Shown: piece after piece, positions 24,521 to 28,333 of the stretch | How positions within the stretch are numbered: the first letter of the stretch is position 1 | Layout of the letters: each line of letters begins with the position of its first letter | Assembly (NCBI GenBank): GCA_022565635.1 | Contig: JAIUMH010000013.1 | Coordinates: 1-37,973 of the forward strand | DNA from: Flavobacteriaceae bacterium | Lineage (GTDB): Bacteria; Bacteroidota; Bacteroidia; Flavobacteriales; Flavobacteriaceae | Length of the DNA: 37,973 bases | Direction: 5' to 3' | Made by a program: the position numbers and the translations under genes | The notes under the pieces: generated by a model | What the model was told of the DNA's origin: nothing | Database searches by the model: none | What the model saw: the letters and a program-made list of their open reading frames with translations, nothing else

Positions 24521-25881
24521 AATATAGACATTGGATAGCATTAATTTTTACCTTAGCTTGTAGCTTAATAATTGGTATATTTTCAATCCTGATTTACTAT
24601 CTTGTAGAACAACACACCTACAACCAATTTGAAAATAGACTGGAAGAAAGAGCCATTTTAGCAGGTCAAGTATTATTAGAAAAGGACGAACTTAACTCCT
24701 CCAGTTATAACGAAATTGTTGAAAAACAAATGCGAAAACTTCCTGAGGAAGAGCATTACATTATTAGACTTGATGGAGATAGCGTTCCCTACCAACAAAT
24801 TCCTAATCAATTTCAAAACAAAGAAATCTATGAACTACTTCAGAACCACTTAGATATAAAATTTTTTAAAGAAAGAGGAAACCTAGTTGGTAATCTACTC
24901 TATAAAGATAATGAAGGCAACTTTTTAGTTATTATTACTGCAAAAGATCAAGACGGAAAGGAGGATGTTGCTTACATCAAAAAGGTTTTAATTAGTATGT
25001 TTTTAATCACAACTCTTCTTATTGGTGTTTTAGCAAATTATTTTAGTAGATTGATTTTATTGCCTGTAAGCAAAATCATTTATCAATTAAAAGCTATTAA
25101 TGCTAATAAACTAGATGAACGTTTAAAACTTAAAAAAAACCATGATAAGCTCTACGAATTATCTAAGGCGTTTAATACAATGTTGAGTAAAATTGAAGAT
25201 TCTTTTGAAAGTCAAAAGCAATTTATACATAATGCATCTCATGAACTAAGAACTCCTCTTACCATTATTTTAGGAGAAACTGATTTAGCTTTGCAAGACA
25301 AAAATTTAAAAGCTGAACAAAAAAACACACTTCTAAAAATTCAACTTCAAGCAGAAAAATTAAGGAATCTCATTAAAAGTTTATTAGAGTTGGCTTCATT
25401 AAATGAAAATGAATTGCGTGAAAGCTTTTGTCATTATCGTTTTGATGAAAGCCTTCAAGAAGCATTAAATTCAATTTTTGAAATTTACCCTGATGCTTCT
25501 ATAGATATTCAATACAAAGAACAAGATTTTACCAATCATGCTTTTGAAGTTTTTGGTAACGCAATGTGGATGGAAATTGCTTTTTACAATATTATTCATA
25601 ATTCGCTTAAATATTCAAAAGAAAAAAAAGTAAGTATTTTATTAGAAGACCAAAACGAAGCTGTACAAGCGGAAATTATAGACAATGGTATTGGTATAAA
25701 TAATGAAGATTTAAGATTTATCACCAAAGCATTTTATAGGGGCAAAAACGCCTATTTTTCTGAAGGTACAGGTATTGGTTTAGCTATTTCCAATCAAATA
25801 GTTCAACTTCAAAAGGGGGAATTAAAAATATTTTCTGAAAAGCAAAGTGGTACACGAGTAATCATCAAATTGCCCAAATGA
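24517..25881 (+). CDS. Sensor histidine kinase
   Basis: This 454-residue membrane kinase partners the preceding response regulator. TM helix 1 (residues 7-30) and TM helix 2 (154-175) flank a periplasmic sensor of about 120 residues with no recognised fold. A HAMP linker (176-230) leads to the HisKA domain with phospho-acceptor H242 in HNASHELRTPLT. The ATP-binding domain shows N-box FYNIIHNSLKYS, G1 IDNGIGI and G2 GTGIGLAISNQIVQLQKG. All catalytic boxes are intact. It ends 144 bases before the fluoride-responsive -7 element, which has its own promoter, so the two units are probably separate. Confidence 0.94.
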   Translation: MKYRHWIALIFTLACSLIIGIFSILIYYLVEQHTYNQFENRLEERAILAGQVLLEKDELNSSSYNEIVEKQMRKLPEEEHYIIRLDGDSVPYQQIPNQFQNKEIYELLQNHLDIKFFKERGNLVGNLLYKDNEGNFLVIITAKDQDGKEDVAYIKKVLISMFLITTLLIGVLANYFSRLILLPVSKIIYQLKAINANKLDERLKLKKNHDKLYELSKAFNTMLSKIEDSFESQKQFIHNASHELRTPLTIILGETDLALQDKNLKAEQKNTLLKIQLQAEKLRNLIKSLLELASLNENELRESFCHYRFDESLQEALNSIFEIYPDASIDIQYKEQDFTNHAFEVFGNAMWMEIAFYNIIHNSLKYSKEKKVSILLEDQNEAVQAEIIDNGIGINNEDLRFITKAFYRGKNAYFSEGTGIGLAISNQIVQLQKGELKIFSEKQSGTRVIIKLPK

Positions 25882-26001
25882 AGTAACAGATAGCTACAAA
25901 TAAACCTAAAGCTAAAATACCAATAAGTCTAACAATTTATAGATTTTATCTGAGATTTGGTGATTTTTAAATTCAATTACAAATCAAAAAAACAAAGAAA
26001 T

Positions 26002-26032
26002 TTGGTAGTTATTAATCTTTGACCTAATTTTG
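26002..26032 (+). promoter_or_regulatory. Consensus promoter driving the fluoride riboswitch RNA
   Basis: TTG at 26002-26004, a 20-base spacer and TAATTTTG at 26025-26032 match the flavobacterial consensus fully. The implied start near 26038-26041 coincides with the 5' end of the riboswitch aptamer. Confidence 0.6.
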
Positions 26033-26041
26033 TCTAACATA

Positions 26042-26109
26042 TGGCAATGATGTCTGCCTTGAACCGTCTTACTGACTAATGACGTCTACGAACATAAATT
26101 TTTGTGTAG
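26042..26109 (+). promoter_or_regulatory. Fluoride riboswitch (crcB motif) with candidate expression platform
   Basis: The aptamer elements can be read in order. GGCA 26043-26046 pairs with TGCC 26055-26058. The eight-base loop between them holds GATGTC (26049-26054), which pairs with GACGTC (26081-26086) as the long-range helix, with one G-U. GTC 26066-26068 pairs with GAC 26074-26076. The conserved AACCG (26062-26066), AATGACG (26078-26084) and TCTAC (26085-26089) are in the expected places; canonical members read CTGATGACGYCUAC here. A bulged stem, CTAC (26086-26089) + ACA (26092-26094) with TGTGTAG (26103-26109), ends on the base before the ATG. It could hide the start when fluoride is absent. 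The downstream CLC gene supports the call. The aptamer match is from memory of the consensus, not a covariance search. Confidence 0.9.
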
Positions 26110-27402
26110 ATGAAACTTAGTACCCTAAAAAAAACTTTAAATCAACTTGAACAAGTTAACCTGTTCGTCTATTTTACGAAATGGTCTATTATGGGTTTAA
26201 TTGTTGGTGCCTTAGTTGGTTCAGCTTCAGCAATTTTTCTGCTTTCTTTAAAAATGGCCACCAACTATAGAGAAACTAATTATTGGATTATAGCATTATT
26301 ACCTGTTGGTGGATTAATTATTGGCTACACCTATTATTGGCTTGGAAAAGGAGTAGAAAAAGGGAACAATCTCATTTTAGAAGAATACTATAAGCCTAAA
26401 AAAACAATTCCTTTTAAAATGGCTCCTTTGGTGCTTTTTGGTACGGTTGCTACTCACCTGTTTGGTGGCTCTGCGGGGCGTGAAGGTACAGCTGTACAAA
26501 TGGGTGGTGCTATAGCAGATCAATTTTACAGGCTGTTTAAAATGACCGTAAAAGACAGAAAAATCCTTATAATTATGGGGGTAAGTGCTGGTTTTGCTTC
26601 GGTATTTGGAACGCCTTTAGCAGGAACTGTATTTGCTTTAGAAGTGCTTATCTTAGGTAGAATAAGATACGAAGCTATTTTTCCGAGTCTTTTTGTAGCC
26701 ATTGTAGCGGATTACTTTTGTGCAGTGGTTTGGGACGTACCTCACACTACTTACGTAATTACTGAAGTTGCTCAAATGAACATCCAAAATTTAGGCTGGG
26801 CAATATTTGCAGGTATTTGCTTTGGCTTAACGGCCATGTTATTTTCCCGTTTAAAAGTATTTTGGAAAAAACAGTTTGCCAGAATAAATCACGCTCCTTT
26901 ACGACCTTTTGTGGGAGGTATTTTTATTGCTGGGTTTGTATTTTTAACTGCATCTACCAAATACATTGGCCTAGGTGTACCAATCATTGAAGAAGCCTTT
27001 CATACTCCATTAACTTCTTATGATTTTTTAATCAAAGTAATTTTAACTGCCTTTACTTTAGGAGCTGGCTTTAAAGGTGGTGAAGTAACCCCTCTGTTTT
27101 TTATTGGTGCTACTTTGGGCAATGCCTTGTTTTTATTTGTGCCAATACCTATTGGCTTATTAGTAGGCATGGGCTTTGTGGCAGTTTTTGCAGGAGCTAC
27201 TAACACTCCGCTTGCTTGTATGCTAATGGGCATTGAACTTTTTGGTATTGAAGCCGGTGTTTTTATAGCTGTAGCTTGTGTTACAGCCTACTTCTTTTCT
27301 GGCCATACAAGTGTTTATACTTCACAGATTATAGGTAGTCCAAAACACAGAGCATATCAATATTTTAAAGGTAAAACCATTCAACAAAGTAACGATGAAT
27401 AA
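26110..27402 (+). CDS. CLC-F type fluoride/proton antiporter (CLC superfamily)
   Basis: A 430-residue CLC-family transporter with about 12 hydrophobic segments. The fluoride-specific CLC-F clade expels F- in exchange for protons. The gating-glutamate motif is GREGT (E125 in SAGREGTAVQMGG) rather than GREGP. The chloride-selective GSGIP motif is missing; its place is held by GKGVEKGNNLI (residues 79-89). Helix N reads KGGEVTPLFFIG in place of GGIFAP. These departures, and the fluoride riboswitch immediately upstream, support fluoride rather than chloride as substrate. The usual automatic label would be voltage-gated chloride channel. Its stop overlaps the next gene by 8 bases, so the lipoprotein is probably under the same control. 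Confidence 0.88.
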   Translation: MKLSTLKKTLNQLEQVNLFVYFTKWSIMGLIVGALVGSASAIFLLSLKMATNYRETNYWIIALLPVGGLIIGYTYYWLGKGVEKGNNLILEEYYKPKKTIPFKMAPLVLFGTVATHLFGGSAGREGTAVQMGGAIADQFYRLFKMTVKDRKILIIMGVSAGFASVFGTPLAGTVFALEVLILGRIRYEAIFPSLFVAIVADYFCAVVWDVPHTTYVITEVAQMNIQNLGWAIFAGICFGLTAMLFSRLKVFWKKQFARINHAPLRPFVGGIFIAGFVFLTASTKYIGLGVPIIEEAFHTPLTSYDFLIKVILTAFTLGAGFKGGEVTPLFFIGATLGNALFLFVPIPIGLLVGMGFVAVFAGATNTPLACMLMGIELFGIEAGVFIAVACVTAYFFSGHTSVYTSQIIGSPKHRAYQYFKGKTIQQSNDE

Positions 27403-28333
27403 CTGTAAATTTCTAATTTTATTATTTTTAGGCTGGGTTGTAACATCCTCCCTAACTTCCTGTGGTTCAAACAAAGTTTTAACTTATCAAAGTACCGACA
27501 CTACTAAATGTACTACTGGATTTTATTATGATTATTCTGAAGAGGACTTACCGCAAGAACTCGACTTTTCAAAACTCTCAGAAAACTTGACTTCTAATTT
27601 TAAAAATGACGAAATCTACCTTTTGCACTCGCTTCAACTTATACCTCAAATTGAACAACTTTTAAAGATTAATGCTTCGGCTGAAAGCATGGAAGAAAAG
27701 ATGGAAAAACTCATCTTAAAGCAAGAAATTTTCCAAAAACTGAATCGAACTTCTTTAGAAATTTCAGCCTTGAGTTCAAGAATTGATTGTGAAGAAGAAC
27801 GAGCTGAACAAGTTGCTTCTTTTTTATCTAACAAACTCAGGAAAAGAGAATCTACCCTAACTGTGGCCGCTATCATTGTAGGAGCAACGGGTGCTATTCT
27901 TGCCGGAGGCTTTGCTACGGCGGGCACAACTCCTGAAATTATTGGACTGGCCACGGGTGTTACAGAAGCCATTTTTGGAACCATGATTTTAACCAACGAG
28001 AAGAAAATTAAATTTACTCACGAAGACAATATACTTAAAGATTTTTGGGAAGGACCAACTACTTCCATGTATGCACCACCTTCAGTTTGGTATTTTTTAA
28101 ACTCATCCAACCTCTCCGATAAAGCCTCTTCAAAGAGAGAACAAACCGTAAGTGGATGGAAAACTTTTACTGATTTTAGTGAAGACGAAGAAAATATGCT
28201 TTTTGGAAGTGGTGGTGATTATACCTCTAATTTACTTCAAAGAAGAGCCGAAATGCTTGATCAAGCGGAAGCGCAAATTAAAATGATGAAAATTATTTTA
28301 CTGGAAGTACAATTGGCTATTGAAAAAATTTAA
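27395..28333 (+). CDS. Lipoprotein of unknown function, co-encoded with the fluoride antiporter
   Basis: A 312-residue protein that I do not recognise. It has a lipoprotein signal (LTSC, lipid-accepting C23). The mature region is helical and rich in Glu and Lys, with predicted coiled coil around residues 85-150. A strongly hydrophobic glycine/alanine-rich segment follows at about 151-202 (AAIIVGATGAILAGGFATAG, then TPEIIGLATGVTEAIFG), resembling a membrane-inserting hairpin, and then another charged helix. The start overlaps the CLC-F gene by 8 bases, so translation is likely coupled and transcription fluoride-dependent. Whether it works with fluoride is inference. A bidirectional terminator follows. 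Confidence 0.65.
   Translation: MNNCKFLILLFLGWVVTSSLTSCGSNKVLTYQSTDTTKCTTGFYYDYSEEDLPQELDFSKLSENLTSNFKNDEIYLLHSLQLIPQIEQLLKINASAESMEEKMEKLILKQEIFQKLNRTSLEISALSSRIDCEEERAEQVASFLSNKLRKRESTLTVAAIIVGATGAILAGGFATAGTTPEIIGLATGVTEAIFGTMILTNEKKIKFTHEDNILKDFWEGPTTSMYAPPSVWYFLNSSNLSDKASSKREQTVSGWKTFTDFSEDEENMLFGSGGDYTSNLLQRRAEMLDQAEAQIKMMKIILLEVQLAIEKI

Follow-up and report, generated by a model that had tools for sequence, protein, structure and literature searches.

A fluoride riboswitch with a putative start-codon-masking expression platform upstream of a CLC-F gene in a Flavobacteriaceae bacterium

The fluoride aptamer, its promoter and the CLC-F gene

The window, i.e. the whole stretch of 37,973 bases that was analysed (contig JAIUMH010000013.1 of assembly GCA_022565635.1), contained a single Rfam match at or above the gathering threshold, the fluoride riboswitch (RF01734; cmscan, Rfam 15). 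The match spanned the full model (positions 1–64) and was the only one for RF01734 in the assembly (3.04 Mb, 248 contigs). The first-pass annotation had proposed such an aptamer and suggested a search with the Rfam covariance model, in which the element scored above the curated cut-off (49.1 versus 34 bits, E 8.1e-11). The two short stems, the GATGTC/GACGTC long-range helix (the pseudoknot) and the AACCG segment that it had named were present, together with the conserved CUAC segment, in the cmscan alignment and the pairings (Table 1). With these features and a fluoride-resistance gene downstream on the same strand, the element is, judged by its sequence, a fluoride riboswitch aptamer, which would be expected to bind fluoride selectively.

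Table 1. Features of the riboswitch locus (positions in the window)
Feature	Position	Strand	Basis or remark
-33 element TTTG, Bacteroidota-type promoter	26001–26004	+	Motif scan; TTTGG also in aligned L031/L122 and Psychroflexus maritimus
-7 element TAATTTTG (TAnnTTTG)	26025–26032	+	Motif scan; box common among related loci
Aptamer, fluoride riboswitch RF01734	26034–26095	+	49.1 bits
Stem 1 GGCA/TGCC	26043–26046/26055–26058	+	cmscan alignment, pairings
Pseudoknot 5' strand GATGTC	26049–26054	+	Pairings
Stem 2 GTC/GAC	26066–26068/26074–26076	+	cmscan alignment, pairings
Optional outer helix ACUAA/UUAGU, would also open stem 2	26075–26079/26117–26121	+	Fold, alignment
Pseudoknot 3' strand GACGTC	26081–26086	+	Pairings; 26083–26086 common to masking hairpin
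Putative start-masking helix, 5' strand CGUCUAC	26083–26089	+	Folds, arm test
Masking hairpin, upper part ACA/TGT (26092–26094/26103–26105) and 8-nt loop	26092–26105	+	Fold
Putative start-masking helix, 3' strand GUAGAUG, holding the start codon	26106–26112	+	Folds, arm test
CLC-F fluoride/proton antiporter (by homology), 430 aa	26110–27402	+	PF00654, best solved relative 6d0j, signatures

The downstream gene starts 15 bases beyond the 3'-terminal position (26095) of the aptamer match. Its product matched Pfam Voltage_CLC (238 bits), and its matches to three NCBIfam chloride-channel equivalog models lay far under the cut-offs (best 97.7 of 482). The best solved relative was 6d0j, a CLC-F protein of Enterococcus casseliflavus (E 4.3e-60, alignment across residues 17–406), compared with only E 3.6e-12 for the best ClcA chain. 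The translation contained GNNLI, GREGT and GEVTP, and the reported CLC-F signatures are GNNLI/GMGLI, GREGT/V and GEVTP (PMC11139923). The GREG and GEVTP segments are shared with 6d0j, whereas GNNLI, one of the two selectivity signatures given in PMC11139923, corresponds to GMNLV in 6d0j. By homology and signatures, the gene encodes a CLC-F fluoride/proton antiporter; the first-pass annotation had named this target, and its best solved relative is such an antiporter. Close relatives of the protein were found in a Flavobacteriaceae metagenome-assembled genome (L122, PXFS01000033.1; 88% identity) and in P. maritimus (L123; 79%).

An ORF of 312 aa (27395–28333, + strand) overlapped the CLC-F stop codon (ATGAATAA) and had no Pfam or NCBIfam match. 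A relative of this ORF (77% identity) adjoined CLC-F in L122, and the 1-kb flank of the P. maritimus locus gave no match. It is possibly a translationally coupled partner of CLC-F. The same genome had another CLC homologue elsewhere (G000:C4:47906-48628), a distant one of 29% identity in a 630-aa frame; the genome's sole fluoride aptamer match was that of the window.

A scan for the promoter pattern TTTG, 19–22 nt, TAnnTTTG identified TTTG-N20-TAATTTTG on the + strand (26001–26032), separated from stem 1 by 10 nt. A promoter placed so that the RNA starts at the aptamer had already been annotated at this site, with TTTG beginning one base too late (26002). In Flavobacterium psychrophilum the TAnnTTTG box is reported to sit at −12 to −5 (PMC9723704), so the RNA start is expected near 26037, six bases 5' of stem 1. 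The full pattern occurred 46 times on both strands of 437,973 bases of the genome. Of 289 sampled ORFs, four (own gene counted) had it in the 200 nt before their start, as did one of 289 control stretches taken from coding sequence; the ORFs were at least 150 aa long, counted from the first ATG, and came from 20 stretches of 20 kb and the window. Among 110 fluoride-aptamer loci (see below), TAnnTTTG ended 3–15 nt before stem 1 in 91, compared with 1 of 109 in an interval 60 nt farther upstream. RNA starting at the aptamer is thus the usual arrangement in these relatives.

Competing folds around the start codon

In the minimum-energy nested fold of 26038–26139 (−16.2 kcal/mol), stem 1 was kept and a CGUCUAC/GUAGAUG helix was formed, followed by ACA/UGU and the outer ACUAA/UUAGU. 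The stem CTAC..ACA/TGTGTAG of the first-pass annotation was present in this fold, but it had been drawn too short and, wrongly, as stopping one base before the ATG. The fold extended it by three pairs (C26083–G26112, G26084–U26111 and U26085–A26110) and took in the ATG. All AUG letters (26110–26112) lay inside the helix with pairing probabilities of 0.97–1.0, and the value for the AUG as a whole (0.98) was matched in 8 of the 289 sampled ORF starts, own start counted. The −12 to +9 region of the own leader was ordinary, with 77 of 289 ORFs being as highly paired. The short stem was rejected as an independent unit: 26086–26109 folded alone gave a different, weak hairpin (−3.0 kcal/mol) without the CTAC/GTAG stem. 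The longer helix is therefore the relevant one, and 26083–26112 folded alone formed the long stem (−7.5 kcal/mol).

Since the helix pairs 26083–26089 with 26106–26112, four letters of the pseudoknot (26083–26086) would help to clamp the whole start codon. Of this overlap only C26086 had been recognized before. The aptamer and start-masking pairings were mutually exclusive, with letters 26083–26089 common to both, in line with the competition between two folds that the earlier annotation had described. The masking fold compares with −10.6 kcal/mol for the nested fold of the aptamer plus −5.7 kcal/mol for the pseudoknot duplex GAUGUC/GACGUC (26049–26054/26081–26086), so the two states may be roughly balanced before fluoride is bound, by a crude estimate that leaves out pseudoknot loop entropy, tertiary contacts and Mg2+. 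With the pseudoknot strands and UAC barred from nested pairing, the AUG had a pairing probability of 0.36–0.38. The outer helix is considered optional only, since its 3' half is coding and TTAGT may be conserved because of the protein sequence; its letters were retained in L031/L122 and P. maritimus.

When the downstream stretch was dinucleotide-shuffled 10,000 times, 127 of the shuffled versions paired equally well with the aptamer 3' segment (p 0.013; p 0.005 with 200 shuffles). The pairing at the own locus is modest by itself and becomes stronger with the comparative data.

Complementary arms in related leaders

Loci were collected as RF01734 matches above the cut-off in searches of the family (20 of 397 genomes), genus (5 of 27), order (42 of 395) and class (40 of 395); the genome sets overlap between searches, and the stricter filters of the large searches lose weak matches. 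Matches below the cut-off were excluded. This gave 110 distinct loci. Right downstream, 91 of them had a CLC-F match covering 250 residues or more (39–100% identity). Of the 19 without one, 14 had a short frame of 112–133 aa or of similar length (95 aa in L093). Judged by size alone, these short frames might be crcB/fluC. Six loci with a called start more than 70 nt away were excluded, leaving 104 in which the 12-nt aptamer 3' segment was tested for pairing with the stretch from the aptamer end to 18 nt inside the gene (200 shuffles per locus).

An arm complementary to the aptamer 3' end was found in 69 of the 104 loci (p ≤ 0.05); two other aptamer segments, taken as controls, reached this level in 8 and 7 loci. 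Without the over-represented genus f5/g241, which contributed 39 loci, the numbers were 32 of 65 versus 8 and 7. Counted per genus by median p, the arm was significant in 20 of 39 genera (controls: 4 and 2) and not significant in the remaining 19. An arm was lacking in all seven loci of family f60, in the single locus of f81 and in three of the four loci of f55/g381. The start codon of several arm-less loci lay 5–19 nt after the aptamer match (L077, L086, L090, L091, L112, L114 and L117 of f60; L069, L071 and L072 of f55/g381).

The arms differed in sequence and in their place relative to the start, as in CCTGAT..ATCAGG-attatt-ATG (L039), CCTAC..GTAGG-tt-ATG (L085), TCCTGTACAT..ATGTACAGGA with the ATG inside (L065) and ACTCCTGT..ATGGACAGGAGT (L116). 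Relative to the A of the start codon (position 0), 68 of 69 arms lay within −21 to +14, a nearness that is partly built in because the tested stretch began 5–57 nt (median 30) before the start and ended 18 nt inside the gene. The arm overlapped −20 to +14 in all 20 genera with a significant representative and reached −8 or beyond in 18. The start codon itself was paired in 12 of the 69 significant loci from eight genera, among them the window locus.

Of the 27 genomes searched in the genus of the window, the same five carried both the riboswitch (above the cut-off) and a close CLC-F (66–100% identity); none of the further CLC matches listed for the 27 genomes exceeded 31% identity. This distribution fits a gain or a loss of the two together. 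The arm was present at each of the five loci (p 0.005–0.035 with 200 shuffles; 0.012–0.032 in the four retested with 10,000). The hairpin of L031 differed from the own one in the loop, the P. maritimus locus had CUAU and a different upper stem, and L032 and L033 had CUACUU/AAGUAG ahead of a TTG start candidate. No ATG was present shortly after the aptamer in L032 and L033, where this TTG, five bases past the GTAG arm, was the earliest candidate start of the CLC-F frame. One congener had a sub-threshold aptamer match of 28.9 bits (L035, G416:C113), with the nearest CLC protein just 27% identical.

Co-variation was examined with a swap test, in which each aptamer 3' segment was combined with every start region in a row- and column-centred matrix of one locus per genus (39), relatedness being allowed for solely through the single row per genus. 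The own combinations were 2.51 kcal/mol better than expected, a value reached in none of 20,000 permutations. The same result (0 of 20,000) was obtained with the first or last member of each genus, with aptamer-internal letters only and with family f5 left out, compared with 5191 and 7250 of 20,000 for the control segments. At the CUAC site of the 69 significant loci, the pair formed by the fourth letter was C-G (13 genera), A-U (five), U-A (four) or G-C (one), with one U-G, and that formed by the third was A-U (nine) or G-C (11), with two G-U; these counts rest on arms selected for pairing, a selection of which the swap test is free. When the aptamer strand was barred from nested pairing, the pairing of −12 to +9 fell by more than 0.1 in 19 of the 39 genera and rose in two (p 3.7e-6), in a model that leans toward unmasking since it can only forbid pairs. 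The modelled release of the AUG triplet was not significant over the 39 genera (delta above 0.1 in 16 and below −0.1 in nine, p 0.18).

Control at the start codon and alternative explanations

Ribosome binding in this genome appeared to make little use of Shine-Dalgarno pairing, as had been assumed for the phylum at first pass: SD-like 4-mers (AGGA/GGAG/GAGG) were not enriched at −18 to −4 of the 289 sampled ORFs (10 versus 14 at −60 to −46). The commonest base was A at −13, −12, −6 and −3. The own start has T at −3, where 126 of the 289 ORFs have A. The scarcity of SD-like motifs and the A-rich positions agree with PMC6847099, in which SD sequences are reported as absent in the phylum Bacteroidota and Flavobacterium johnsoniae is described as lacking them and tuning translation by structure near the start.

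We consider it likely that the riboswitch is a translational ON switch for the CLC-F exporter, which masks the start codon itself; fluoride binding at this aptamer, the ON direction and ribosome access as the regulated step are what we infer. The RNA would begin a few bases 5' of the aptamer. When fluoride is absent, the aptamer 3' end (the pseudoknot strand and the conserved CUAC) would be invaded by the sequence surrounding the start codon, and the resulting CGUCUAC/GUAGAUG helix would bury the AUG, with little exporter being made. Bound fluoride would lock the GAUGUC/GACGUC pseudoknot and the CUAC contacts, so that the masking helix could not form, the AUG would become more accessible and the ribosome could start. 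Fluoride would need to tip a near-even balance of two folds. Shine-Dalgarno pairing would be dispensable in such a switch, which would work through access to the start codon. We also lean, by a small measure, towards many Bacteroidota fluoride riboswitches having a common SD-independent platform, in which the pseudoknot/CUAC strand clamps the start region just before the start codon, on it or in the first codons. As such a clamp takes whatever surrounds the start codon, the AUG rather than a ribosome-binding motif would define the masked site.

The best-studied fluoride switches act by premature ending of transcription, and that of Bacillus cereus crcB has the same overlap as the window, its pseudoknot strand and a downstream hairpin having common letters and being mutually exclusive (PMC11077080). 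Control by termination, whether intrinsic or Rho-dependent, with the hairpin as the terminator, is nevertheless unlikely here. The B. cereus hairpin is an intrinsic terminator, whereas that of the window lacks a U-run and contains the AUG. A T5 run within 12 nt after the arm was found in 4 of the 104 loci (L004, L092, L093 and L115), which would suit termination there, but in none of the five loci of the window's genus. A terminator scan of 25850–26400 gave no site on the + strand and a single site on the − strand. With no T-run after the own arm and no terminator-like site on the + strand at 25850–26400, the reading as an intrinsic terminator was rejected at the window locus. Together with the co-variation of the arm and the 12 of 69 arms on the start codon, the few T5 runs and the lack of a + strand terminator in the scanned region support the control of translation that the first-pass annotation had suggested for this putative switch.

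A near-perfect inverted repeat at 26149–26166, in the start of the CLC-F gene, was terminator-like on the − strand.

The hairpin might also act chiefly on mRNA lifetime, through a nuclease site gated by fluoride, with translation following. The lysC riboswitch of E. coli is reported to control both translation and decay (PMC12121620). This explanation is more doubtful still than termination: the letters of the arm vary by genus while the pairing with the own aptamer near the start is kept, which a nuclease site would not need. Least probable is that the aptamer is real and the arm incidental at the window, the nearby folded aptamer itself changing ribosome access, as the own p of just 0.013 and the ten arm-less loci of f60 (seven) and f55/g381 (three) with starts 5–19 nt past the aptamer match would allow, since the arm occurs in all five loci of the genus, some of its letters being different in P. 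maritimus and in L033, and co-varies across genera.

Translational riboswitches are usually explained as hiding the Shine-Dalgarno sequence. The fluoride switches of Pseudomonas syringae and Burkholderia pseudomallei reportedly act through the Shine-Dalgarno region. The likeness to these systems lies in the translational control, both being named as translational variants in PMC13273304, whereas it is the start codon that pairs in the window, and SD sequences are reported as absent from its phylum (PMC6847099). Compared with the fluoride riboswitch class as a whole (crcB motif, RF01734), the aptamer of the window shows no notable deviation and the difference lies in the expression platform. 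Bacteroides TPP riboswitches, as given in a reference title in PMC7366714, come from the same phylum and control transcription or translation, with another ligand and aptamer.

A 2026 study characterised 1901 fluoride riboswitch sequences with covariation models built from terminator-filtered sequences, and took a looser covariation model to cover translational platforms (PMC13273304). The passages of PMC13273304 that were examined describe no start-codon clamp, and its main text does not contain 'bacteroid', 'flavobact' or 'chryseobact'. A description of such a clamp was likewise not found in the titles and abstract openings of the freely accessible papers listed in the literature searches. 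Both the class of aptamer and the principle of overlap have been described before (PMC11077080), and the start-masking expression platform is probably a new form within this class, an earlier report being possible. The locus and its relatives offer a concrete, short (~75 nt) and testable answer to how riboswitches may reach translation without SD sequences, namely by hiding the start codon. Leaders controlled by fluoride might also serve as gene-control parts for Bacteroidota.

In the folds of some f1 loci, a second segment complementary to the aptamer was seen, TTTAAGGC before the ATG pairing with TGCCTTAAA of stem 1 and the linker. It was not retained as a general feature (p ≤ 0.05 in 9 of 104 loci; swap test 144 of 20,000 permutations for all 39 genera and 9459 of 20,000 when confined to the family), and these weak statistics make it a lead only. 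In L007, L013, L016, L017 and L036, a short hairpin separated the aptamer from the arm, and the AAGG(C/T) directly before their ATG can pair with the 3' strand of stem 1 and the linker, which suggests, with the same weak statistics, a two-arm platform. In L004 and L092, the arm lay in the first codons (ATGGGTAGGA) and was followed by TTTTTTT, so that these loci might join start masking with a terminator.
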